DNA from: Mortierella sp. BCC40632
Lineage: Eukaryota; Mortierellomycota; Mortierellomycetes; Mortierellales; Mortierellaceae
DNA: 64,000 nt
Assembly (NCBI GenBank): GCA_011634665.1
Contig: WAEK01000019.1
Coordinates: 434,001 to 498,000, forward strand
Direction of reading: 5' to 3'
Notes under the pieces: model-generated
Seen by the model: only the letters and a program-made list of their open reading frames with translations
What the model was told of the DNA's origin: nothing
Database searches by the model: none
In this document: positions 11,891-25,076 of the stretch, one piece after another
Position numbering within the stretch: position 1 is the first letter of the stretch
Layout: each line of letters opens with the position of its first letter
Made by a program: the position numbers and the translations under genes

Positions 11891-14854
11891 TTATGATGCT
11901 TGCTTTGCACGATTGCGCTTGCGCACACGAGTAGCCCTTTTCTCTTTACTACTCTGACCTGTTGCAGCATGTGCTCCACCATCCGTTGTCGTCTCGACTG
12001 GATCATTGGGTCGTCGTTTTTTACGATCAGGACCTTGAGCATGTACATCACTGGCTATTTTGTTCCTTGGCGACTGACGTCGCTTGCGTTGCGTAGAAGG
12101 GCACTCCTGCTGCTCTTGCATTGATTCGTGTCTTTTCGCCGTCTGACGAGGCTGCGCTAAAGATTGTGCCTCTGGTCGATCGCGAGTCTTCCAGTAGTCT
12201 GAGATGCACTTTCTTTCAATAAAGTTCGACTGAGGCTCCCAGGTCTTTTCTTTGTATCCTTTCCAGCTTACGTAGTATTCCATCCCCTCCCCAGGAAGTT
12301 CCCTGTGGTCAAGAATTTTATGTACTACATATGTATCTGTTGTTTCGAAGTCGTCAAGCACAAGCTTGAGCTGCGATGGTGCGAAATTACGCCCAAGCAG
12401 TTCCCCAGTACCATATTGCAGTATGTAGGAACCACCGGTCGTTTTTCTAACAACAGTGTACGGGCCTTCGTATCGCGGGGACAGTTTGTCACCCTTGATC
12501 GGATCCAACGACATGACCTTCGACCCATCAGGGAACTCATTGTGCAGTACCGTTTTGTTAAAACGCTCAATCATGCGACGTTGAGTTTCACGAGCCGTAG
12601 CATCGATAGCTGGGAAGACGGTCTTGGTCATATATTCAAGCCGCTTCAAGAGTTCTTCTTGGGATACTAATTCGCCCTTGTCATTTGAGAAATTACTGAT
12701 ACCATTGAATCGCCTTGCAAAGAAAAGTGAGAAAGGCGAAGAATTATGCAGAGCTGCCACCTTAGTGTTCATGGCGAGCTGTGCCATGGGTGCATGAAGT
12801 GCCCATGAATCCTCTTTATCGCTGACCTCTTTGCGAATGATGTTACACGCAGTCTTTACGTGAATCTCAGCGACACCATTGCCGCGAGGATGATAAGGAG
12901 TGACCAAGCGATGTTGCGTACCCATCGTGTTTGTCATCTCTCTTATTGCCTCGTCGACGAATTCTCTACCATTGTCAGATTGAAGGACGCGAGGGAATCC
13001 AATAGTGGTGAAGATCTTGAATAGCACTTTCGCGATTGTAAGCGATTCCTTGTTTGGTATGGGTTCAAGGAAAACAAATCGGGTGCAGACATCTGCCAAA
13101 ATGAGAAGGAAGTTGTTAACCTCACTCGTCACAGGGAAGGGACCGGCTAGATCAACAGCCATGTGTTCTCCTGGCAACTGAGCATGAATGGCTGACATTG
13201 GGTGATAACCCTTGCGCGCGATGTTGACTCACTGGCATTCTGGACAACGCTGAACAAATTCCAAGCAATCCTTGGCCAAGTGGGGCCACGTTTTATTTAA
13301 CGAATGGATGTGATTGACCATCGCATTGGTACCGAAGTGACCTAATGCATGGGTGTCAGCTAATAATATTTTTCTTTCGGAAACCTTGACCGTCTCTCGA
13401 GGAGTCTCGGCATTCTGAATTAAATCCATGTAACCATATACCTTGGTTGATGCTTTCCCGATTGACTTACTCGTCCACAGCTCCTGAGGAAACTGTCGAG
13501 ATAACGCATCCGGTAACACATTCAACACTCCAGGCCGATACACAACCTTGGAGGTATAATCCAGAATTGTTTCCTGCCACGCCGTTAACATGGAGTTCAT
13601 ATCCTTTTGCGAATGCATAAAGATAAGAGCTCGATGGTCAGTAAAGAGTGTGAAATGACGTCCCCACAAATAATAATGCAATTTTTTGAGGGCGAACACA
13701 ATTCCCAACAACTCTTTCTGGGTGGTTGAATAGTTTCGTTCACTTGCCTACAATGAACGAGCAACGAAAGAAATGTAGCGAATATTCTTCGGGTCCGATT
13801 CTCCCCCCGGCAACTGGTACAGGACCGCGCCAATGCCATAGTTCGATGCGTCTGTCGCAACGTAGAACGGAAGGCTAAAATCAGGAAAGTGGAGAATGGG
13901 AGCTTGCGCCAGAAGATTTTTCAAAGCGTTAAAACATCTCAGCTGGAGATCATTGAGAACAAACGGGCCAGGTACATTCCGTAGCGCATCCAACGGAGCG
14001 GCTATGGTGCTGATGAGCGGAACATATTCCCTGAAGAAATTGAATGTACCCATGTACGATTGGACTTGCTTACCCGTGGTCGGGGGCTTCCATTCGTCTA
14101 TGTTCACCAATTTGTTGGGATCCACCCGCTTCCCGTTAACATCAATGATAAAGCCCAGCAGCGACACTTGTGTGCTGTAGAAGTTGCATTTCTCTCTATT
14201 GATAATAAGTTTTGCTCGGGTCAGGCGACCGATGACAATCTTGACATGCAGTTCATGATCACGACGGTTCTTGGATGCAATAAGGATGTCATCAATAAAA
14301 TTGCGGACAAACTTCAGGTCTCCTAGAATTCTGCTCATACCTCGCTGGAACAAACTCGACAAGGGCTTCAGTCCACACGGAGCCTTCTTGAACATGTATT
14401 GTTGTCCATTGTGCATGAACGCCGTGAGTGGCTGATCCTCCTCGTGGATCGGAAGTCGATGATATGCCTGTTTCAAGTCCACAGTCGAGAATACCGCATT
14501 GCCTCCTGCAAACTGCATGATATCTGAAATAAGTGGAACAGGGAAATTGTCATCCGGTAAGTAGGCGTTCAAAGGTCGTGGATCGAGACACACGCGATAA
14601 AGCGTCTTATTTCCATCCGCATCCTTCTTTGCTGCCAGCGTTAACGTGTTATTATGGCGGTTCCCGACAGGCGCAAGAGTAATCACATCATCAGCAAGCC
14701 ATGCCTTGACTGCATCGTCAATGATGGGAACTTGCGATGCTGCGAACGTCTTGGGTCTACGGTACAACTTGACATTCTCCGGTACTGGCAAGTATACCTT
14801 CATCTCCGGGACGGGGCAGTAACTTGTTTTCGGGATCATGGCGATAGCCTCCAA
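11891..14854 (-). pseudogene. pol: Ty3/gypsy pol (RT-RNase H-integrase-chromodomain)
   Basis: A single frame of about 988 codons interrupted by two stops, TAG at 13748-13750 and TGA at 13229-13231. In order it has reverse transcriptase ('VCLDPRPLN', 'STVDLKQAYHRLPI', active site 'FIDDIL'), RNase H ('VATDASNYGIGAVLYQ', 'TDHRAL'), the integrase H-H-C-C zinc finger ending 'RCPECQ', and the integrase core ('MAVDLAGPF', 'LQSDNGREF', 'HPRGNGVAE'). It ends in a chromodomain ('YYVSWKGYKEKTWEP') plus a basic tail. That order places it in the chromovirus branch of Ty3/gypsy (Metaviridae). The protease is absent upstream. The second stop lies directly after the zinc finger. Because the frame is otherwise continuous, the copy died recently. 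Confidence 0.9.
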
Positions 14855-14868
14855 TAACTTGTTGATGC

Positions 14869-14975
14869 TGTCAGATATGACACGTCACGGGCAGGGTATA
14901 AATAATCCCCTGCCCGGCCATCACAATAAGATCCCTCTCTTTTTCCCATTCCATCATCGTGTCATATACATCAGC
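14869..14975 (+). repeat. Short LTR-like spacer between gag and pol
   Basis: It begins 'tgtcagatatgacacg' and ends near 'cgtgtcatataca', so its ends are inverted (atatgacacg/cgtgtcatat). Inside, 'gggcaggg' and 'ccctgccc' bracket 'tataaataatc', a TATA box in the loop of an 8-bp stem. It looks like a very short LTR or a MITE that replaced the gag-protease junction; I found no clear target duplication. Confidence 0.4.
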
Positions 14976-14977
14976 TC

Positions 14978-15499
14978 ATCAGCAGGTTTGCGGAAACTAG
15001 GGACATAACGTTCCATCATCTTAGTGGCAGCCGTATCAGGTCCAAGACGGGAGATGGCAAAGAGAATCTTGTCGGTATCGGTAGGGTATGTGGAGTCATT
15101 GGCAACAAAGAAAAGATCCACTCGAGCCTGGAATGACTTCCATTCTTCGCGCTTGCCCGAGAAGACTTCGGGGAGAGCGAGGCGGGGCTTGGCTGGTGAT
15201 GAAGTGCGGCTGGCTTGAGTGACGGTGATGTTATTCGACATGTCGCTGCGGAGGGTATCCAGTGCTTCTCGGAATTGGGCTTGACTGACTGGATGGCGGA
15301 CCCTGGGGAGGGCACCCACTTGTTCGTCGAGCTCTCTTATGGTTGTCTCAAGAACTGCTGCACGGTCTTCCAGAGATGTGATCGTGGGAGCTAGGTTTGC
15401 GAGGAGACCTTGTGTGACAGCATTGTAGACTGTCTCTCCTGCTTTGCCACCATTGCCACCATTGCCACCATTACTACGCCCCCTCACTGCGCCCTGTAC
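14978..15499 (-). pseudogene. gag: Ty3-type gag fragment
   Basis: The likely start is the ATG at 15499 (MVQGAVRGRS...), after which come a Gly-Asn repeat, a coiled-coil-like helix, and 'LPEVFSGKREEWKSFQARV' with 'DKILFAISRLGPDTAA', the conserved core of Ty3-class Gag. The frame ends in unrelated sequence shortly after 'RYVPSFRKPADE', so the C-terminal capsid part and the zinc knuckle are missing. It lies on the same strand as pol and could belong to the same element or to a relative. Confidence 0.65.
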
Positions 15500-15564
15500 C
15501 ATAGTATATATAACCCCATCTCTTTGTATTATAAACATCATCCGTTTCTAGCTCTCCCTTCTTG

Positions 15565-15650
15565 TTCTTATCCTTGTCCCTGTTCTTGTCCTTGTCCTTG
15601 TCCTTGTCCTTGTTCTTGCCCTTGTCCTTGTCCCTGTCCAACCTCTCGTC
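15565..15650. repeat. Low-complexity (ccttgt)n tract
   Basis: Repeats of ccttgt with interruptions (ccctgt, tcttgc), about 14 units. It separates the gag fragment from the next retroelement fragment. Confidence 0.85.
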
Positions 15651-15659
15651 CTGTTGCTA

Positions 15660-16316
15660 TTACACCTTAGAAGAAAGGCAGTTGAATGCGAAAAAATTCC
15701 ATCATTTCAGAATTCTTGGAAGCAGCATCTTCAAGGGTTCGGACGCGTTCAACCAAGGCATTGAAGTTGGTGTTGGCATTTTCAAGTCCAGCGGCAGGTA
15801 GCATGGCGGAGAAAAATTGTTGATGAGAGTCAGGGAATTGTTTTGTGTTTGCTGAGATGGTAGGGCTAGGGATGAAAGATCAAAAGTCGTTTGATCTGGC
15901 AATGCCGAGAAAATCTAGACGAGTGTGGACAGAGTGATCTTTCAAGGCTAGATGGAAAAGGCGAAGGAGAAAATGGATTGAACAGGGAAGAGAGGCTTTC
16001 AGGTGCTGAACTGGATTTATTCAAGTTACCAGATACAGAACAAACTATGGTAGAGCTATAGGGTATTTATATTATTAAATGAAGGCATAGCCTCGGCGCC
16101 TAGGAACTGATACGGACAAATACTAGTTCTGTAGAACTAACTAGAACTATTACTAATAAATAATTACTAACAAATAATTACTAATAGATGATTACTAAGA
16201 AGTATACGCAATCATCTTAGTAATCCGGGGGCCTTGGGATCCTAGGATAGCTTCCTAGGGTCTTCGCAGTGTCCTTGTGACCTAGTAGTTGTCGCGAGGC
16301 TGCGGCGAAGCAAGGA
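15660..16316 (-). mobile_element. Fragment of a second retroelement (gag start and LTR-like flank)
   Basis: The minus strand over 15660-15840 reads '...FFSAMLPAAGLENANTN' and 'VERVRTLEDAASKNSEMM', a short helical stretch like the N-terminus of an LTR-element Gag. The adjoining 16000-16316 is AT-rich with 'aataattacta' repeats and could be its LTR. It is too short to classify. The MULE is inserted at its right edge. Confidence 0.35.
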
Positions 16317-16325
16317 CTACGGACT

Positions 16326-16347
16326 GAGTGTCCTTTTGGGCTGACCA
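16326..16347 (+). repeat. MULE left terminal inverted repeat
   Basis: Begins GAGTGTCC immediately after the 9-bp target duplication; pairs with 22142-22163. Confidence 0.88.
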
Positions 16348-16479
16348 AATGGAACTAATGGAGTGAAAGGAAATAAATGATTTAGTGTGAGCCCCTTGGT
16401 CGAGCTGTGAAAACATTTCAGTAAACAGCAAGGCGCGTACCTCAGAACTAATTCTCGTGTTGTAAACACGCATAAGACT

Positions 16480-16824
16480 CTATTGTCTCTTGGTTGATGG
16501 TCCAGCGATGGGCTCTGTCTCCTGTATCGGCCCTGAAGACCCTGCCAAGGATGATCGCCATCCGTACGAACCGTCTCCATGTACCGGCAAAAGATATCGA
16601 GGTCGTTGCTGGTTCTGCAAATGCTCTCTTGCGGCCACTGCCATATTGCCCGCTGCCAGAACATCGCGGTGGAATGGTGTATTGCAGGACTCGCAAAATA
16701 ACCTGCGAATCGATGCAGACGAGACAAAGTCTAACGGATCCCTTCCACTGCGTTGGCATTTTGGGCATCGCTTCGAGGTGTAGAACTCGTTGATCCCGAC
16801 CACCAGGTAATCGAGCGATCGTGC
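16480..16824 (-). pseudogene. Fanzor (eukaryotic TnpB-like) C-terminal remnant
   Basis: From an acceptor-like 'cttctag' (exon start 16824) the frame reads 'LVVGINEFYTSKRCPKC', a ~23-residue insert, 'RLFCESC', then 'HRDVLAAGNMA' and 'RPRYLLPV'. This is the signature end of TnpB/Fanzor nucleases: a C-x2-C...C-x2-C zinc ribbon, the RuvC-III aspartate in 'HRD' and the helix after it. Fanzors are RNA-guided DNA endonucleases. Here only the last ~115 residues remain, and the REC/WED region and the RuvC-I Asp and RuvC-II Glu are absent. A 22-T run (16862-16883) lies in the gap and may mark the insertion or deletion that removed the middle. It lies downstream of the XPG-like gene on the same strand, so the two may once have been one protein; that is inference. 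The identity of the zinc-ribbon end is fairly secure; present activity is excluded. Confidence 0.75.
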
Positions 16825-16861
16825 CTAGAAGTCGGAATGTAGAAAAGATTAGTATGTCAAG

Positions 16862-16883
16862 TTTTTTTTTTTTTTTTTTTTTT
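16862..16883 (-). repeat. Poly-T run between XPG-like and Fanzor parts
   Basis: 22 T (poly-A on the coding strand) exactly where the central Fanzor domains would be expected. It resembles the tail-only retroposon scars elsewhere in the window. Confidence 0.6.
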
Positions 16884-16969
16884 GGCTATCCGAACCTGCG
16901 AAACATACTGTAATCATGCAACAAGTCAATTAAATAGAGGAACACCATCCTACCTCTTTCCAGCAGCTT

Positions 16970-18029
16970 TCAAGCGCAGGGCTTTGTGGCCTTGACTCTG
17001 CTTTGTAGGTCGAAAACTTGGCTGTTCCTGAGGACTGCCTGAGCATTGGCGATCTTGGCCTCTTCAGGGGCATACATTAACTCTTGACCGTGCTCGTATA
17101 CAAGCAGAGCTTGGGAATAATCGATAGGCCTGCTTGTATTCTTGCTGACCCTGGATGATCTACCATACGCATCAACTAGCTCGCCAACGCTTGCTGTTAT
17201 GAAGGAAATTGATTAGAGACTATGGACAAGCAAGTCAACGTAATAGTGACTGCAGACAATTACCTTGGGTAAGCTCGCGAATTATGCCAAAGTTCGACTT
17301 TGTTCCTAATCCTGGAACGTTGTTGCTGTAGTCGTTAAGAGAAACAGCCGCCAGAGCTGTCAGCTGTGCCCGGGATACTCCGAGGGCCTTGGCACAGTCA
17401 TCGACATCGTATCGCTTGAACGAGCGAGCCGTTGGACGAAAGACAACCCCGATGCTGCGATGGGCCAATAAATCCGAGTCGCCAGACACGACCAACACGG
17501 ATTGTCCAGACCGTGTTAAACTATCGTGTCGGAGTCTGACAGCGACGTCAGCCTCGCCAGGTGCCCGATGAGCATTCCAGCCGGTTTTTTGAAGTAGTTT
17601 GGTGATTTCATCTCTGTCCTCGACTGTCAGGGAAACCGCCGAATCAGTGATGCGATTAAAAATCTGATGCTTGGTCCGTGAAAGAGGTTTGCCCATTTAG
17701 GCTCTTCTCTCTGCCTCGTCAACTAGCTTGTGGGCTTTCTCAACCTTTTTGTTTACAGCGGCTGTCCTCTGGGCATGGGTTTTTGCTTTGTTCTTTGTTG
17801 GATAGCCATCCACGAAGATTTCGGTAAGTTGGGTCTTGGGAAGGCGTTCCGAGAGGAACTTGTCAAGCGCCGCGGCTCGTCTTTCGGGATGACACTTGGT
17901 GTAGATTCTCTTGATCTTCGAAAAGTATGCGCCAAAGAGATCAACAAGCACCCTCGTTCCTTCGAGTATTTTTTCTTCAGGAGGCGTGATAGAGTCCTCG
18001 ACGAGTTTCCACAATCCGAGGACCCCCAT
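16970..18029 (-). pseudogene. XPG/FEN1-like structure-specific nuclease (MULE cargo)
   Basis: Exons 18029-17264 and 17193-16970 join in phase through a 70-nt GT-AG intron. The N-domain starts MGVLGLW as in FEN1/XPG/EXO1, where the free N-terminal Gly matters. Next come 'VLVDLFGAYFS' and 'IFVDGYPTKNKAKTHAQR', carrying the first two metal-binding Asp positions. The I-domain has 'APGEADVAV' and 'VVSGDSDLLAH', the Glu/Asp and Asp-x-Asp pairs. The helix-3-turn-helix reads 'LNDYSNNVPGLGTKS' with its Asp. So every metal ligand expected of the family is visible. One in-frame TAA (17697-17699) splits the N- and I-domains and is followed at once by ATG. The second exon adds ~74 residues and ends in TGA. 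Family members cut flap or bubble DNA. The gene sits inside the MULE and shares its strand. Confidence 0.75.
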
Positions 18030-18079
18030 TACTGAACGTGACGGGGCGTGCGTGTATGAGTGTAAAGGAAGTTTGAAGA

Positions 18080-18260
18080 AAAAAAAAAAAAAAAAAAAAG
18101 GAGGTGGGAAGGTTGAGCGATAGAAGTAGAGAGAGAGGAGAGGTAGAGGTGTTGAGAGATAGCGGCGTTTGTTGAGAAAGAGAGATAGGAAGAAGATGAG
18201 AGAAGAGAGACGAAGAGAGACGAAGAGAGAGGTAAAAGAAAAAGAAGAATTGTGGCTGGT
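18080..18260. repeat. Poly-A and purine-rich tract upstream of the XPG-like gene
   Basis: About 21 A near 18080 followed by 160 bp of GA-rich sequence (agagaga, gaagag). It lies just upstream of the XPG-like start on the minus strand, where it reads as a pyrimidine-rich leader, as seen before other genes here. Confidence 0.5.
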
Positions 18261-18322
18261 GGAGGTGAAAAAGGTGGATCCCTCGACTCAAATCACCTTC
18301 CTAAAACGGCATTTCGTCGGAT

Positions 18323-18347
18323 GAGTGTCCTGTTGATGGGCTGACCA
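18323..18347 (+). repeat. Internal MULE TIR-like copy
   Basis: 'gagtgtcctgttgatgggc' followed by 'tgacca' matches the outer TIRs with a short insertion and has the left-end orientation. The 9 bases outside it (tcgtcggat) do not match the right-end duplication, so it was not used in the last transposition. Confidence 0.7.
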
Positions 18348-19028
18348 TCCCTCTGTTTGACTCCGCCCCCCCCCCTCCCACCCAAAATGTATCAAGATAT
18401 CGTTCAATTTTGGACGTACACTTATTATCCAATCAGCGCTTGCCTTTCATCTAGGATGTTCAAGGCCCCATTTCCAGTAGTTCTTCATAAGTGAAGTACC
18501 TTTAGACGCGAGTTTTTTGTTGGAGTCTCTTAATAGATATTGAATATATATAATAATTTTTTTTACATATGTCAGTGTAATTTTCTCGAGTGGGAAGCAG
18601 GGTGTCGACACATTATGAGCCAGAAGGTCGGGTTGGGACGCGTGTCTAGTCAACTTTTGACAATGCTTAAAAACTAAATGCACATTATTCGCGCAATTCA
18701 ATATCAAGGCCTAAAAGATCCACTAGTAAAACTATTGAAGGAAAGTCAGGGGAATCTGGTTAGTGAGAAAATGTAAAATGAAACCGATCATGGAAGCCCA
18801 ATTTTTGACCAAGTCTTAATGCTTCAAAGAAGTCATTATATTCTTCCCCTGGATACATTATAAGTGTGCTTGCCTTTCTAGCCAACAGTTTAGGCTGGAT
18901 TCAGCCTAGATTCTGGCAAAGGGTAAAGGCCCAAATGGTGCGACTTTGATCTTTTTATCACTCTTAATTCGGGTTCAAATGATGCAGAGACTGGACAAAG
19001 AGCTCGTTGTGTTTATTGAATGACTAGC

Positions 19029-22000
19029 CTAATATTTCTGTCGCTGTCTCTTGGTCTTTGATTTCATGCTTTCTTCAACCATGCGAACCAATCTTGCTAA
19101 CGTCTCGTTTATCGCTTGTTCATTTTCTAGGGGAGCTTCCTTGTCTTGAAGAGATATTAGAGAGGTAAGACGTTGGAGATTGGTGGATAGAGTATCCGGT
19201 ATTGGTTCAAAAGTCGGCTCAGTGTACTCAAGATAATCTCTGTGAGCTGCATCTAAAAGCGAACGCTTGTTATCTGGCTTATCGCTATGGGGATGGATGT
19301 CATCACACCTAAGCTGTAATTGTGGTATTTGAGACATCACTAAGGCAATATGCTTGCAGCAGCTGACATTCATGCGGAAGTATGGGCATGTACAGTTGAT
19401 GATCTCGCCAGATGCCATTCGACTAAAGTCTACAGAGATGTCGTATGATAATCTAGGCGTCGTAAAGGATTCAACTCGGAATGTTCCATTGTCGATCTGT
19501 ACCATTGGCTCACCAGCAAAGCCCAGCAACTCTCTGGTCTGTATGTGTTTTTCAGCTATGATTTTGAGGCGTGCTTCAATCTTCTGTGCCGGGTTCATGC
19601 GCCCTACTTTCATGATGCCTAAGATACACTTCTGCTGGAAATGAGGAACGGCCATGAAAGCCAGGATGGAAATGACAGTGTCAGGGCGCCGCTGATGCCG
19701 ATCTCGAAAGAAATGTCGCTTGAGGATGTTGTGCCAGGATTCGATGTAGTTGTTGGTATCGATAGATGCATATGATACTTCTTGTCGAAAGCACATCATC
19801 CAGGACTTCTGAATTTGAGAGTTATCCTCACTCTGTTCAGGCCCAAAGTATCTTTTGTTTAGATAGTGTAAAAGATCCGTCTGTCCTTTCCACTTTTCCC
19901 GGTAGTCTTGAATCAGCAGCACGGCTCTAGCATGATTAGGTTCTCTTTGGATTGAGCGAAGTTCTGCAACCGCCTGTAAGACTCAAAAAACGAATTTTAG
20001 AATCTCAAGGCACCAATTGTAAATAAGTGAAGGGAGTGCACGAATGAAACGTACCTCGTCCCTAATGGCTTTTCTCTGGTCAACATGAAGATGAGTAACT
20101 CCATGAATGCGACTGCGAACCTCGCGTTCCCAAATACGAAAGACATGCCAAGCACAAAAGAAAACGGGGATCTGATCTTCTGCGAAAGCAGTCTTGATTG
20201 CCAGTATCTCAACATTGCCTTGGTCCGTTATCACAGCGTTCGGCCTGTAAACATATAAGTTGCCTGGCGAGGAAAAGATCTCGGTCATCTTGCTTCGGAG
20301 TCCCCGTAGCCATCCGACAAGAACAGAATTTTCCGTGGTCTTTGTCAACAGGAAGGCTACTGGAACGCCGAATCCTGTTCTGGCGTTTTTTACAACGAGC
20401 GTGAATAGGTTGGTTTTCTGCCTATCGATACAATGGTTTCATTTGTAAGTGCAAGGCTCAAGAAAAGCCAGCCAGCCTGAAAAAATCAAACACTCAGGAT
20501 TGTACCCAAACACATCGTGAGTCCCATCAAAACAGATAGTTCTTCCATGCGCTTGCAGCTGATTCATTTGCCACCTTGTGGCAAATCCAAAATAGAGTCC
20601 ACTAACGTGGTCATCCTTGTCATAGTAAGTGAATCCACCATCATACTCCAGTTCCATCATCCATTTCATTGATGAGAGCACAGGGTCGTTATCTTTCCTC
20701 ATTTTGTTGGCCATGATGGAGTGCCAGATGTTGTAGACATCGTCGTAGGTGATGGAGTCATCACGAGAGAAGCGTCCCTTCTCCCGCAAGACCTGCATAA
20801 ACTTGTCATGTTCCATTGTGAGCTGGTTCATCACCATAGAGATTGTGGAGCCCCCCAGAATAAGCTTCTTGATCGTCGCCTTGATAGCCGCCGATTGTTG
20901 ACGAGATCCCAGACCGTTAAAGAGCCCCACATCGTGGTTATGCTCGTAACAATAGGAAACATGACATACGGTCTGGCTTGTCCCATCAAGTCCTGGAACT
21001 TTTTGAGTGCTGACTCGGATCTTGGCATGACATCCCTTCTTCATGCTCTGTCTGCTAACCCTTTGCTTTCCTGATTTCCCTCCAACCACTCTGTCTTTTC
21101 TGATGGTGCGTTTTTGGCCGGCACACTGACATTGCAAATAAGACAATGTGCCCCCTTTCTTTTCTTTGCCAGTATACTTGTAAATGCCCTTCATCTTAAC
21201 AAAATTGTGGAAATTTGGGCCTGGTGTCGTTGAAGCCATTCGACATACTCGTCCGGAGATAGAGTGAAATGAGCCGATTTCTCTGTGATCTGTAACGCTC
21301 CATCTCGAAGGTTTTCCTCTCGGATACCACCATCTTTCAACAAACACTCGCGAACCTCTTTCAACGCAAGCTCGCGCAAGTTATTGGATATCTGCATTTG
21401 AATCCGCTGAGTAATGATCGGAAGTAGCCAGTTTATTAGGCCTTCGATTAAATAGAAAGCTAAACACATGGAGAACCGAGCTACACTTGCACTCACCTCA
21501 ATTGGGGTACCCTCAATCATGACTACGCTGGGTAAAGTATCGAAACCGGCATCAACTGAGCCTGTGTCTAACTCTGCATCATGTGCTTCATCAACAACAG
21601 AGTTATCTCTGGCAATGTCGGTATCCCTTTCGTCGGCAAGACCGGCATCCTCTGGGTTTTGGTTGGCGTCATGCTCCTCAGAAAAATCGGAGCTTTCTAC
21701 GTTGTTGGTGACGGAATCAGCACTATTGGTAGGGGTGTCAGCGTCATTGCCAAGGTCGACTTCTCCAGTGTCCAGATCTGCGTCGTAAGTGTCATCCTCA
21801 CCACTACATCTAGGTTGAGGCTCGTCATTAAAAAGAGCGGCCTAAGGGTGGAGAAGAGTAAGTAATAGGCTAAGGGATAAGTTCTTTCTCTTTTTTCTTT
21901 CAGGTAAGGAGTGACTGTACCAGTTTCCGCAGACTACTAACGACGAGCATCTCGATGTCCTTCTCTTTGTGTGCCGGGGTAGAAGGTGCAGCCTCGGCTG

Positions 22001-22031
22001 GCGTCCTGTTTCGGACGCGGGACTTGACCAT
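19029..22031 (-). CDS. MULE transposase
   Basis: Five exons: 22031-21921, 21841-21497, 21406-20506, 20421-20055, 19973-19029, all with GT-AG introns that keep phase (about 889 aa). The N-terminus is basic, then an Asp/Glu-rich region. A WRKY/GCM1-like zinc region follows ('LQCQCAG', 'KGCHAKI', 'SYCYEHNHD'). The MULE catalytic core has 'ICFDGTHDVFG' (first Asp), 'AVITDQGNVEILAI' (second Asp) and 'FFCAWHVF'. The C-terminal SWIM finger reads 'CTCPYFRMNVSCCKHI'. One base is missing in an A4/T4 run (21201-21204) in exon 3: the frame before it and the frame after it both match the family but are offset by one. It is either a real one-base deletion or a sequencing error. The gene lies just inside the right TIR, typical for this superfamily, and would mobilise the XPG/Fanzor cargo. 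Confidence 0.88.
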
Positions 22032-22141
22032 GGGAGCGAAGGGATGCAAGAGCGGATGTCTGATGGTTGATGGGCAAGCTTTTCAATCGAATCAACAAGT
22101 TTGTGATGTAGGGGTAAATTTTGAAATGCATGGTTTACTAA

Positions 22142-22163
22142 TAGTCAGCCCATAAGGACACTC
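22142..22163 (-). repeat. MULE right terminal inverted repeat
   Basis: Reverse complement of the left TIR with two mismatches; followed directly by the 9-bp duplication ctacggact. Confidence 0.88.
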
Positions 22164-22172
22164 CTACGGACT

Positions 22173-22738
22173 TGTGACTGTCTTTCCGAAATGGTGCAAC
22201 TAGATGGAGTTGACCAATTCCATGACAGATAGTTCGCAATCGGTGGGTGGAGGAAAGGGTGATAGAGGGTTGTAGTTGTATGATGATTTCTGCGCGCGCG
22301 AGTCAGCTCTCTGTTCTCAACTTGTTCTTCGTGTCTGATGTAAAAGGACAAAGAACAAGCGAGGCAGGTCTGCGGCGCACTATTTAAGCTACTCTAGGGT
22401 CTGCAGTAGTCTGTCTACGGTGAGGTCACTACCCTCAAAAAAAAAAGAAACAATACTCAATACAATCATTTGTATCAGCCTTAATCTCACGCAAAAGAAT
22501 ACCAGTATGCTGGATTTTATTTTACAGAAGAGAGTTTCAAGGAGAGGAGCTCAAAAGACTGAATTTTCTTCTCTTTTCATTGGGCATGACAGAGGGGAGC
22601 AGCAGCTCCTGGTGTCTCTTCTTTGCCTGCTCTTTGGCTAATTGGCGGCGGCAGGTCTCATATGTGCAACATAGTCGCAGGGTTGTCGCCTACATAGAAG
22701 GTTTACCAAGACCAGAGCTCAGTTCTTTGCTTGTTTAG
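22173..22738. other. No recognisable feature
   Basis: Flank of the MULE and downstream region of the next gene. I see only short open frames. The first bases would be continuous with 16316 before the MULE inserted. Confidence 0.5.
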
Positions 22739-25076
22739 TTAAATACATTGTAATAGTTCATCATACTCATCACTTACTCGTAAGACAAGAAGATCATGAA
22801 TAGCCAGTGCACTCATGCCCAATTCCTGCACAGTTGAGAAGAGGCGACGCTCTGGAGACCTAAAGTATCGCGTGATGTTTTTACCTTTGGTTCCCCAACA
22901 AATTTGAACCCTCTGGATGACTGGCCCTATTTGATTCAAATTATTTTATAACAATGTTATATTGCAGTCGAAGTCGATTCAGCAGTTATCAGGGTATCTT
23001 CCTTACCTCCAGTCAAAAGACCGCAAACATACTCCTTGCGAAGGGAGTCCACGCCGCCAACCTCAGACGTCCTTGCAACTAGAATATCGTGCAGTTGCCG
23101 AGGCAACTTGAAAGTGCCTTCACTGCGGTACTTCATAGATGCTGGGTCCCAAACCGTTGCTGATTCCCCAGCAGACCAATCTATATCAGGAGAGGATATT
23201 GTCCTCCAAAGAAAATCAACTTTGACCCCAGTCTTCTTCCTATCAGCATTGTCGATATCCTGGTTTCTTCTCTCTGTCGAGTCGTGCCCGGTCTTCTCTC
23301 CCATGATAATGAAAGCATCCTTGACTGCTGTGGTGAGACGCCTACACACTCCCCAGGCGTTCTCCTTCCACCAAGCTTCCCCCAGCCGTGCGGCTACTGG
23401 GAATGGCGATGACTCCGAGATAAGTAACTCCTCCCTTGATTGATTAAAAATAAAATAAATGAAATTGTTCAGTTTATGTGTGTTAAAGTCAATCAACATT
23501 GTAACAGGAAACGCTCTAGACATAACTTACCACTGGTCCAAACAGTAGTGAATTATTTTGCACTCGGGATCTTGTTGCCGCGTCTCCAATACAGCCTTCA
23601 ACTTCTCCTTTGTGTCAACATCCATGCATCGGTCTAGGTATCTGTCTGCATCGTCTCCATATTGCTGGAGAGGCGGGAGGTCGGAGATTATTTCTTTCCA
23701 ATCGGCTTCAGAGAACAGTGCTTCTATTTTTCGGTCGTCCAAATCAATCATAAAGCTGTGGATTGGACTGAAAGACATGACAAACGTCAGCATACACTCG
23801 TTTTCAGGGTAAAAGGAAAATCGACAACGAAAAAGCAAGAAAAGCACCTGAAGACGGCACAGTTTTCGTCGGAGCCGGCAGCGTACAGCACGTCTTCCAC
23901 TATGGTGCCTGATTCCAGAACCCACTTCTCTCCTAGATTCCGATATCGCCCTTCTAGTGATCGCCGGTTCTTGTTGGTGAACTATACTCAAATAGTATAA
24001 AATAAACGACGTCAGTTTGACATCAATAAAAACAAACTGGTTGGTATAACTAGAGGATCTTACCGATTTTTTTCGCTTTGGCGAGACTGATGGTACTGAC
24101 ACTGCGGAGTTGATCAGTGAGGAGTTGGTCAAAGTGGAGCTGGCCGATGAGAAGTTGGCTAACAAACCCGTTTCAGAAGCTGACGTCGCAGAGAAAAGTT
24201 TGCCAGCGCTGGTTTTATCTAATCTCACATAATGAGGAAGGCAAGAGTCAGGAGAATATTAGGCATGGTCCTTGTTGGTATGGTATGATGTACAGGTGCA
24301 AAAGCTACCAATAGGTATAGGCTATTCTCAAGAAGAGAGTAGGGTCGAGGACAAGGACGAGGATGATAGAACTGGTGAAGATTTTTCTGGATTACATTAA
24401 ACAATGGGCAATTAATTATAAGCTCTCTCACACCTTCTCTGGAGAAATGACTGCACCTACCTTCTTTGACAGATTGAGGTTTCAATGGGGGCATTGAGGC
24501 AAGGCGACTAGGTTTTCTTGGAACCTGTAGTGAAGGCATGGCCTTCGACGATAGACCTGCATGTCCAGACGTCCTTGTTTGCGCGCTCATCGCCTGGATG
24601 AACTTTTTGGAAACATGCTCGGTTTCTGAAACAACCTCTGTAGCAGTTCTCTTAGTCGTAATGGATATCTGTGACGAGAGATTTCTCTTGGCCCAAAATT
24701 CAGCTCCATTATTACGTAGCCAAATTTCGTACTGGGAGGCCAGCATTGTCTGCATTTTGAGTGGAATCATATTCGAGGAGATGAGGCTGATGTAAGCATG
24801 ATCGGCGTCTTGTTCTGACCGATAATTAAACACATGCACAAAGCCCGGAAAGCTGACTTCCTCCTTGCGCCTTATTGTACTATTATACCAGTCGATGGCA
24901 GATAAGTGGTGGTTGTTGTTGTCGTCGCCATTATTGTTGTCGCCGCCATTGTTGTTGTCGTCTCCATTGTCGTTGTCGTCTCCATTGTCGTTGTCGTGTC
25001 CATTGTCGTTGTCGTCTCCATTGTCGTTGTCGTTGTCACTGTAGTTGTTGTCGTCATTATTGTTGAAAGGGTCCAT
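22739..25076 (-). CDS. Unnamed fungal family protein, 585 aa, intact
   Basis: Six exons (25076-24461, 24218-24064, 23981-23848, 23767-23531, 23434-23007, 22926-22739) with GT-AG introns. All phases agree and the total is 586 codons with stop. The N-terminus carries about eight DDNDNG-type hexapeptides encoded by near-identical 18-bp repeats. A basic 'SPKRKKS' could be a nuclear signal. After it come 'EKWVLESGTIVEDVLY' and 'HSFMIDLDD', then 'GVKVDFLWR' and 'GTFKLPRQLHDIL'. These blocks recall a very large Mortierella/Rhizophagus family without a characterised member; I recognise it only by pattern. The 'VDFL...E' segment could be a PD-(D/E)XK-like core, but I cannot show the lysine. The gene is divergent from the CRN gene, and its upstream region is shared with a tandem array. 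Confidence 0.75.
24905..25050 (-). repeat. In-frame 18-bp coding repeats
   Basis: Seven to eight head-to-tail units encoding D/N/G hexapeptides in the 585-aa protein. The nucleotide units are nearly identical, pointing to recent expansion by slippage. Confidence 0.8.

Follow-up and report, generated by a model that had tools for sequence, protein, structure and literature searches.

We examined a 64,000-nucleotide stretch of the genome of Mortierella sp. BCC40632 (GCA_011634665.1, contig WAEK01000019.1, positions 434,001 to 498,000; hereafter the window) and found in it a decayed copy of a Mutator-like element (MULE), a type of DNA transposon, spanning 16326-22163 (5,838 bp). Our reading, to which we give a probability of about 0.62, is that this element carries, inside its outer ends but outside its transposase unit, a single XPG-Fanzor gene in which an N-terminal, structure-specific nuclease domain of the FEN1/EXO1/XPG type would be joined by a linker to a Fanzor RNA-guided nuclease, Fanzors being relatives of CRISPR-Cas12 in eukaryotes. 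At the level of sequence, the boundaries of the element, the fused structure of the gene and both of its domains, with their predicted catalytic residues conserved, can be regarded as established. A preliminary description of this DNA had listed three same-strand genes, for a MULE transposase, an XPG-like nuclease and a Fanzor remnant, the last two as cargo. All three segments do lie on the minus strand and both kinds of cargo are present; what did not stand is the division of the cargo into separate genes, as comparison with other copies indicates that the XPG and Fanzor segments are two parts of one gene, the middle of which is deleted at 16907-16912.

The XPG-Fanzor gene and its relatives

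Three lesions break the gene in the window: its XPG part contains a stop, its exon 2 is frameshifted, and a deletion of about 2.25 kb has taken out the Fanzor core, with the Fanzor N-terminal part, RuvC-I and RuvC-II. At the deletion site the sister copies C18, C7 and C12 hold 2.25-2.28 kb that code for the Fanzor N-terminal part and RuvC-I. In 3/3 of these copies exon 2 is free of stops up to a GT site and the Fanzor exon follows an AG site with the frame kept; the C7 and C12 copies stem from a recent duplication. The diverged member on C6 (L045) splices into an open chain of 964 amino acids (aa) that runs from the XPG start to past RuvC-I, with three open junctions.

Used as a database query, the L045 chain returned 9 proteins out of 7,988 scored candidates; from 7,995 scored candidates, a profile search returned 11, 2 of them already known. 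Both parts were found in one chain in eight NCBI proteins from eight Mortierellaceae strains (P0003, P0004, P0005, P0013, P0014, P0015, P0016 and P0017). An XPG domain and a RuvC domain therefore do occur as one protein in relatives, as seen in L045, these eight proteins and the three sister junctions. P0013 (Mortierella sp. AD010, 1,254 aa) is complete both in its XPG domain, start included, and in its Fanzor C-terminus, including the TNB end. P0003, P0015, P0016 and P0017 end ahead of the TNB domain, P0004, P0005 and P0014 are without the first XPG residues, and several of the eight are marked partial by NCBI. The Fanzor exon of a sister copy (L009) had a protein of Lunasporangiospora selenospora as its sole match (69% identity, 82% of the query). 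This species and six named species that were looked up belong to the Mortierellaceae; the other species with related proteins were assigned by genus.

The TNB domain (PF07282, TnpB/Cas12f1-like) of the Fanzor part scored over its cut-off in the window (Table 1) and in P0013 (E = 2.9e-14). Passages of Bao and Jurka (2013, PMC3627910) give the Fanzor signature as D-X(125,275)-[TS][TS]XX-C4 zinc finger-X(5,50)-RD. With the D of D[LPAG]GQ[AT] as its starting point, this signature fits 8/8 proteins that reach the zinc-ribbon end, among 21 stored, and the window copy misses it because its RuvC-I part is deleted. The catalytic Glu sits in a loop ahead of the TNB domain, according to passages of PMC11423790, and we take the Glu of INEFYTS/VNEYYTS to be this residue; in P0005 the Glu ahead of the TNB domain is replaced by Lys. 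A search of solved-structure sequences with the Fanzor part gave matches at the level of the TNB domain only, the best to the TnpB-like protein L79 (E = 0.0025), and Pfam returned no Fanzor-type name for the stretch between XPG and TNB. Viral and prokaryotic contigs scanned with the Fanzor-side alignment showed no relative (two peptide patterns each, weak negatives). The Fanzor stop lies about 155 nt from the end of the element, whose final ~30 nt can pair into a hairpin in each of seven aligned copies; four distinct ends were also folded singly.

For the XPG domain, a profile of eight sequences matched solved structures, with yeast RAD2 as the best (E = 5e-13) and human XPG, FEN1, EXO1 and GEN1 also present. 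The AlphaFold model of the C7 XPG exon had a mean per-residue confidence (pLDDT) of 85.2, and Foldseek with this model placed EXO1 and FEN1 as best matches (probability 1.00; identity 16-20%), with TM-scores by query of 0.67-0.72 for EXO1 chains among the best 50 matches. Alignment of 12 members revealed that the carboxylates E159, D161, D186 and D233 are kept in 12/12 and D184 in 11/12, and that D74 is kept in 11/11 and D30 in 8/9 of the members with a letter at that position. By the FEN1 numbering, we take these to match the FEN1 residues. The exceptions are D184 to G in P0005, D30 to G in P0017 and gaps in truncated models. Matches to TnpB and FEN in NCBIfam were all below cut-off.

Two further observations concern this domain. 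The XPG exons of L045 and L046 had a weak Pfam match, below cut-off, to poxvirus G5 (E = 0.0003 and 0.002), a FEN1-like protein. L042 and similar open frames on C10, C17, C19 and C5 encode XPG-like sequences of ~370-440 aa that have no Fanzor neighbour and are ~26-31% identical to the XPG part; it is possible that they are relatives of the source of the fused domain.

To place the gene in its genome (49.9 Mb, 62 contigs), we searched with the XPG and Fanzor exons, which gave at least 51 and at least 62 matches, respectively. Merging yielded 42 XPG places and 38 Fanzor places, the latter becoming 39 with the window's own TNB place, added by hand. A related Fanzor lay at most 4 kb downstream on the same strand in 23/42 XPG places and on the opposite strand in none; two XPG places had a Fanzor upstream. 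All 23 pairs thus show the order XPG then Fanzor on one strand. Among the 12 members, the XPG and Fanzor trees (supports 20 to 100) had 3/9 splits in common, a number reached by 15 of 5000 label permutations, and the distances in the two parts were correlated (Mantel r 0.84, or 0.73 without the window family; 0/5000 permutations as high, each). The ratio of nonsynonymous to synonymous divergence (dN/dS) between copies was 0.21-0.37 for the XPG exons, 0.19 for the linker in both comparisons and 0.09-0.29 for the rest of the Fanzor exons, in comparisons that have references in common and are not independent. Together, these sequence comparisons indicate that the copies are under purifying constraint and that the two parts have a correlated history. 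The fusion was not invented by the window MULE; it belongs to an older, diverged Mortierellaceae gene family that was picked up by MULE-type ends.

Boundaries, transposase and other copies

The intact ends of the preliminary description were borne out. Across 20 nt the terminal inverted repeat (TIR) arms 16326-16345 and 22144-22163 are 95% complementary, across 22 nt they match at 20/22 positions by eye, and a perfect 9-bp target-site duplication, CTACGGACT, flanks the element. A scan of 15300-23200 looked for 20-nt inverted pairs that had no more than 2 mismatches, had their arms separated by 1 kb or more and were flanked by a perfect 9-bp repeat; the element's own pair was the sole match, and 0/200 dinucleotide shuffles contained one. 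The description depended on the 16326 end having been used, and since the 9-bp duplication abuts it, this end was used in the last insertion. TIRs together with a 9-bp duplication, the MULE criterion, are present in the window element and also in a second copy on C7. The flanks joined at the duplication, searched in the same genome as a possible empty site, matched only the window's own flanks, and Rfam gave no match up to E 1 over 16000-22600.

A TIR-like copy in left-end orientation follows the transposase (Table 1), and therefore the MULE probably formed a complete unit by itself and gained the XPG-Fanzor segment with a second 3' end; the inner copy is probably the original 3' end of the MULE before that segment joined. 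Using the inner end, the MULE alone would span 18323-22163, and the XPG-Fanzor segment falls beyond it. In the transposase the SWIM zinc finger was over its Pfam cut-off (E = 1.1e-5), and the FAR1 and MULE domain matches were under theirs. PF10551, the MULE domain, matched one exon with E = 0.0053 (17.6 bits vs a cut-off of 27.6); the spliced transposase gave no PF10551 match at E 0.01, with SWIM still over cut-off. The acidic residues of the transposase were judged by eye alone.

Table 1. Features of the element and of the gene it carries, in window coordinates.
Feature	Position	Strand	Basis
Target-site duplication, left, CTACGGACT	16317..16325	.	Flanking repeat and shuffle test
TIR, Fanzor (3') end of element	16326..16347	+	Inverted match; same end adjoins Fanzor in 6 other fetched copies
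Conserved 3' terminal hairpin, candidate end of guide-RNA scaffold	16326..16362	-	Alignment and folding
Last exon: Glu of INEFYTS, four-Cys zinc ribbon, RuvC-III Asp (HRD)	16480..16824	-	PF07282, E = 6.2e-11
Junction of ~2.25-kb deletion	16907..16912	-	C18, C7 and C12 match both sides, with 2.25-2.28 kb between
Exon 2 of XPG-Fanzor gene, frameshifted in window copy	16954..17193	-	Sister comparison
Exon 1, XPG/FEN1-like nuclease domain; in-frame stop 17697-17699	17264..18029	-	Open frames, Pfam, sister comparison
Internal TIR-like copy, left-end orientation	18323..18346	+	No substitution and 3 inserted bases relative to left TIR
MULE-type transposase gene with introns, SWIM and FAR1-like domains	19029..22031	-	Pfam, spliced model
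TIR, MULE (5') end of element	22142..22163	-	Inverted match
Target-site duplication, right, CTACGGACT	22164..22172	.	Flanking repeat and shuffle test

Elsewhere in the genome the 16326-type end occurs at seven places (C18, C7, C12, C26, C4, C9 and a second C7 place). Fanzor C-terminal sequence adjoins this end in 6/6 fetched copies outside the window, all of these places except C9, so that other copies with the same TIR do carry the Fanzor segment. Allowing 2 mismatches, the end pattern was also found on C1 and C8, a reversed control pattern giving 3 matches. In the fetched loci L014 and L015 the Fanzor exon is present, and no 16326-type end was found. At C9:1269586-1269645 only the element's 3' end is matched, over 60 bp, possibly a short non-autonomous or 'ghost' copy as described for SpuFz1.

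The copy on C7 has both ends, a perfect 9-bp duplication (AGAGGGGCT) and a length of ~10.8 kb; it gave no match to the transposase and holds a second, different Fanzor. On C12 both the second Fanzor and the XPG-Fanzor gene have a MULE transposase upstream of them, and on C26 MULE 5' sequence is fused straight to the Fanzor 3' part, making this copy a deletion derivative. MULE 5' sequence upstream of Fanzor sequence was seen in C18, C12 and C26. The C7 and C12 copies (L010, L011) are 99% identical over ~7.7 kb, with identity stopping exactly at the 3' TIR and flanks that differ, which argues for recent mobility; C18 is 83% identical to both over ~4.3 kb covering both parts. A MULE match lies within 10 kb of 5/23 XPG-Fanzor places, compared to 0.41 expected under uniform random placement (0/2000 simulations as high), although these five places include related copies of one subfamily.

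The second Fanzor-like gene (L010:6535-9088, minus strand, and the matching part of L011) lies upstream of XPG-Fanzor within the C7 and C12 elements. It has a RuvC-I-like GTDPG, identified by eye, and a TNB-like zinc ribbon below the Pfam cut-off, and a 430-aa piece of it had 122 genome matches, unmerged. In the window, retrotransposon open frames resembling reverse transcriptase and gag (13748-15547, minus strand) end ~0.8 kb to the left of the element, as judged by eye.

Possible role and alternative explanations

Published Fanzor biology, the ~155-nt stretch at the 3' end and the terminal hairpin together lead us to think that guidance brings the protein to the donor site once this has been restored. 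The Fanzor part would bind an RNA transcribed from the element's 3' end (with 16326-16362 as the candidate hairpin), with flanking target DNA as guide, and would cut the restored empty site once the MULE has jumped out. More speculatively, the XPG domain could then trim or resect 5' ends or flaps at the break, and this processing might steer repair to copy the element back from the homologue or sister. This would parallel the role proposed for TnpB in bacterial insertion sequences. We propose only tentatively that the Mortierellaceae hold a class of two-headed RNA-guided nucleases in which the Fanzor RuvC cuts the empty donor site, the FEN1/EXO1-type domain processes the ends or flap, and the element is copied back or spread by recombination.

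Several observations weigh against our reading of the element. Covariation in the hairpin was no better than in shuffles (170/500 reach it), the full-length 1,180-aa model of the fusion was of low confidence (pLDDT 52.5) and was not used, and the Pfam scores for XPG_N (16.7 bits vs a cut-off of 22) and XPG_I (~17-22 bits vs 24.9) were both below cut-off, window copy included. Unpaired places amount to 19/42 for XPG and 16/39 for Fanzor. No fully open gene was present in the copies of the window subfamily that were read (C19, C18, C7, C12 and C26): C18 changes frame within exon 1 and meets an early stop close to where the main Fanzor exon ends, and the Fanzor parts of C7, C12 and C26 contain stops or frame changes, of which some fall at homopolymers and may be assembly errors. 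Both ends and the duplication are resolved in only 2 copies (window and C7), and the 5' ends of C18, C12, C26 and C4 showed no intact TIR with a matching duplication, C26 having a partial TIR-like stretch. Using 9-base exact seeds, we found no TIR with an 8-11-bp duplication around the diverged XPG-Fanzor loci on C25 and C6, and therefore the XPG-Fanzor gene is not tied to MULEs. Finally, the copies are probably mosaics, through recombination or conversion among copies, because synonymous divergence between C18 (L009) and C7 (L010) differs between parts: it is 0.14 and 0.30 for the two XPG exons, rises to 0.66 for the linker and 0.72 for the Fanzor core, and is 0.32 for the last exon.

A further point against our reading, that 33/38 MULE places are without XPG-Fanzor within 10 kb, is also what would be seen if the MULE had picked up the segment passively and the segment had no transposition role, a Pack-MULE-like capture. 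The internal TIR at 18323, suggesting a MULE complete by itself, the dead window copy and two diverged members without TIRs fit such a capture as well. We nevertheless consider it unlikely given the excess of XPG-Fanzor places near MULEs, the dN/dS below 0.4 among copies and the general character of Fanzors as mobile-element genes in passages of PMC3627910 and PMC10432273. Alternatively, the XPG domain could have ceased to be a nuclease and serve as a platform for binding DNA or RNA, leaving the Fanzor as the sole cutting part. With only 16-20% identity in the structural matches the domain is far from classical FEN1/EXO1, and P0005 and P0017 are each short of one carboxylate; the retention of the carboxylates across the 12 members, four of them in every member, makes this explanation rather improbable.

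That XPG and Fanzor are neighbouring genes, separate items of cargo run together by gene predictors, we regard as more improbable again. The GT-AG intron keeps the frame in 3/3 copies, three junctions are open in C6, the linker has the low dN/dS given above in both comparisons, and the 23 pairs are all in one order on one strand. On the other side, the NCBI models, many of them marked partial, may share one annotation pipeline, the parts are separated by an intron containing a poly-T stretch, and the synonymous divergence of the two parts is unequal. An assembly artefact joining unrelated pieces is scarcely credible: homopolymer indels do suggest a noisy long-read assembly, but the similarity of C18 to C7 and C12 spans both parts, C7 and C12 are nearly identical, and the same arrangement recurs in other species. 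A decayed MULE with a single XPG-Fanzor gene is therefore the reading that we retain.

If that reading is right, an RNA-guided nuclease fused in nature to a structure-specific 5' nuclease would show what purpose Fanzors serve in eukaryotic transposons, and a partner domain that processes the cut would mean that what is selected is a particular route of repair, not the cut alone. The family also offers a ready set of natural proteins with two predicted catalytic centres for biochemical testing, and connects a Fanzor with one specific superfamily of transposons whose transposase is also present.

Comparison with known systems

The XPG-Fanzor fusion is a domain architecture that we did not find in the open-licence literature, in which Fanzors in MuDR-type elements are already known. 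There, no report combined XPG with Fanzor or TnpB with Mortierella. As far as the sources were accessible, TnpB and XPG met only in a Cas12a study with one mention of each, Fanzor met FEN1 or flap endonuclease only in single mentions of the nuclease, Mortierella with XPG led to work unrelated by title, and Fanzor and Mutator do co-occur. The words 'MULE', 'Mutator' and 'fusion' are absent from PMC10432273, and 'PIN domain', 'flap' and 'Mutator' from the text of PMC10711439. In PMC3627910, 'fused' does not occur and 'endonuclease' occurs 14 times; in the 12 of 20 places covered, the endonucleases are GIY-YIG and restriction-type proteins of Mariner elements.

Passages of the same paper (Bao and Jurka 2013) describe Fanzor1 in the MuDr-type elements ROr-4, PBl-3 and MCi-4 of Rhizopus, Phycomyces and Mucor. 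Like the window element, these hold a Fanzor gene within MuDr-like TIRs, with 9-bp duplications, in early-diverging fungi, and their Fanzor has the D...[TS][TS]..C4..RD signature of the present family; they are reported there without a MuDR transposase, whereas the window element has its transposase within the same ends and its Fanzor fused to XPG. SpuFz1 of Spizellomyces, according to passages of Saito et al. (2023, PMC10432273), resembles the present family in that a short non-coding stretch lies after the Fanzor and has the 3' inverted repeat at its end. It has a published guide RNA, extending 14-15 nt past the conserved region, where the present family has a candidate hairpin. Compared to FEN1, EXO1 and XPG (RAD2), the XPG domain has the same fold and catalytic carboxylates but differs in its low identity, in being joined to a Fanzor and in residing on a mobile element. 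MULEs and the window element have in common the TIRs, the 9-bp duplication and the SWIM and FAR1-like domains; unlike usual MULEs, the window element has a MULE Pfam domain that scores below cut-off and, at its 3' side, an additional cargo unit that has a 3'-end copy of its own.

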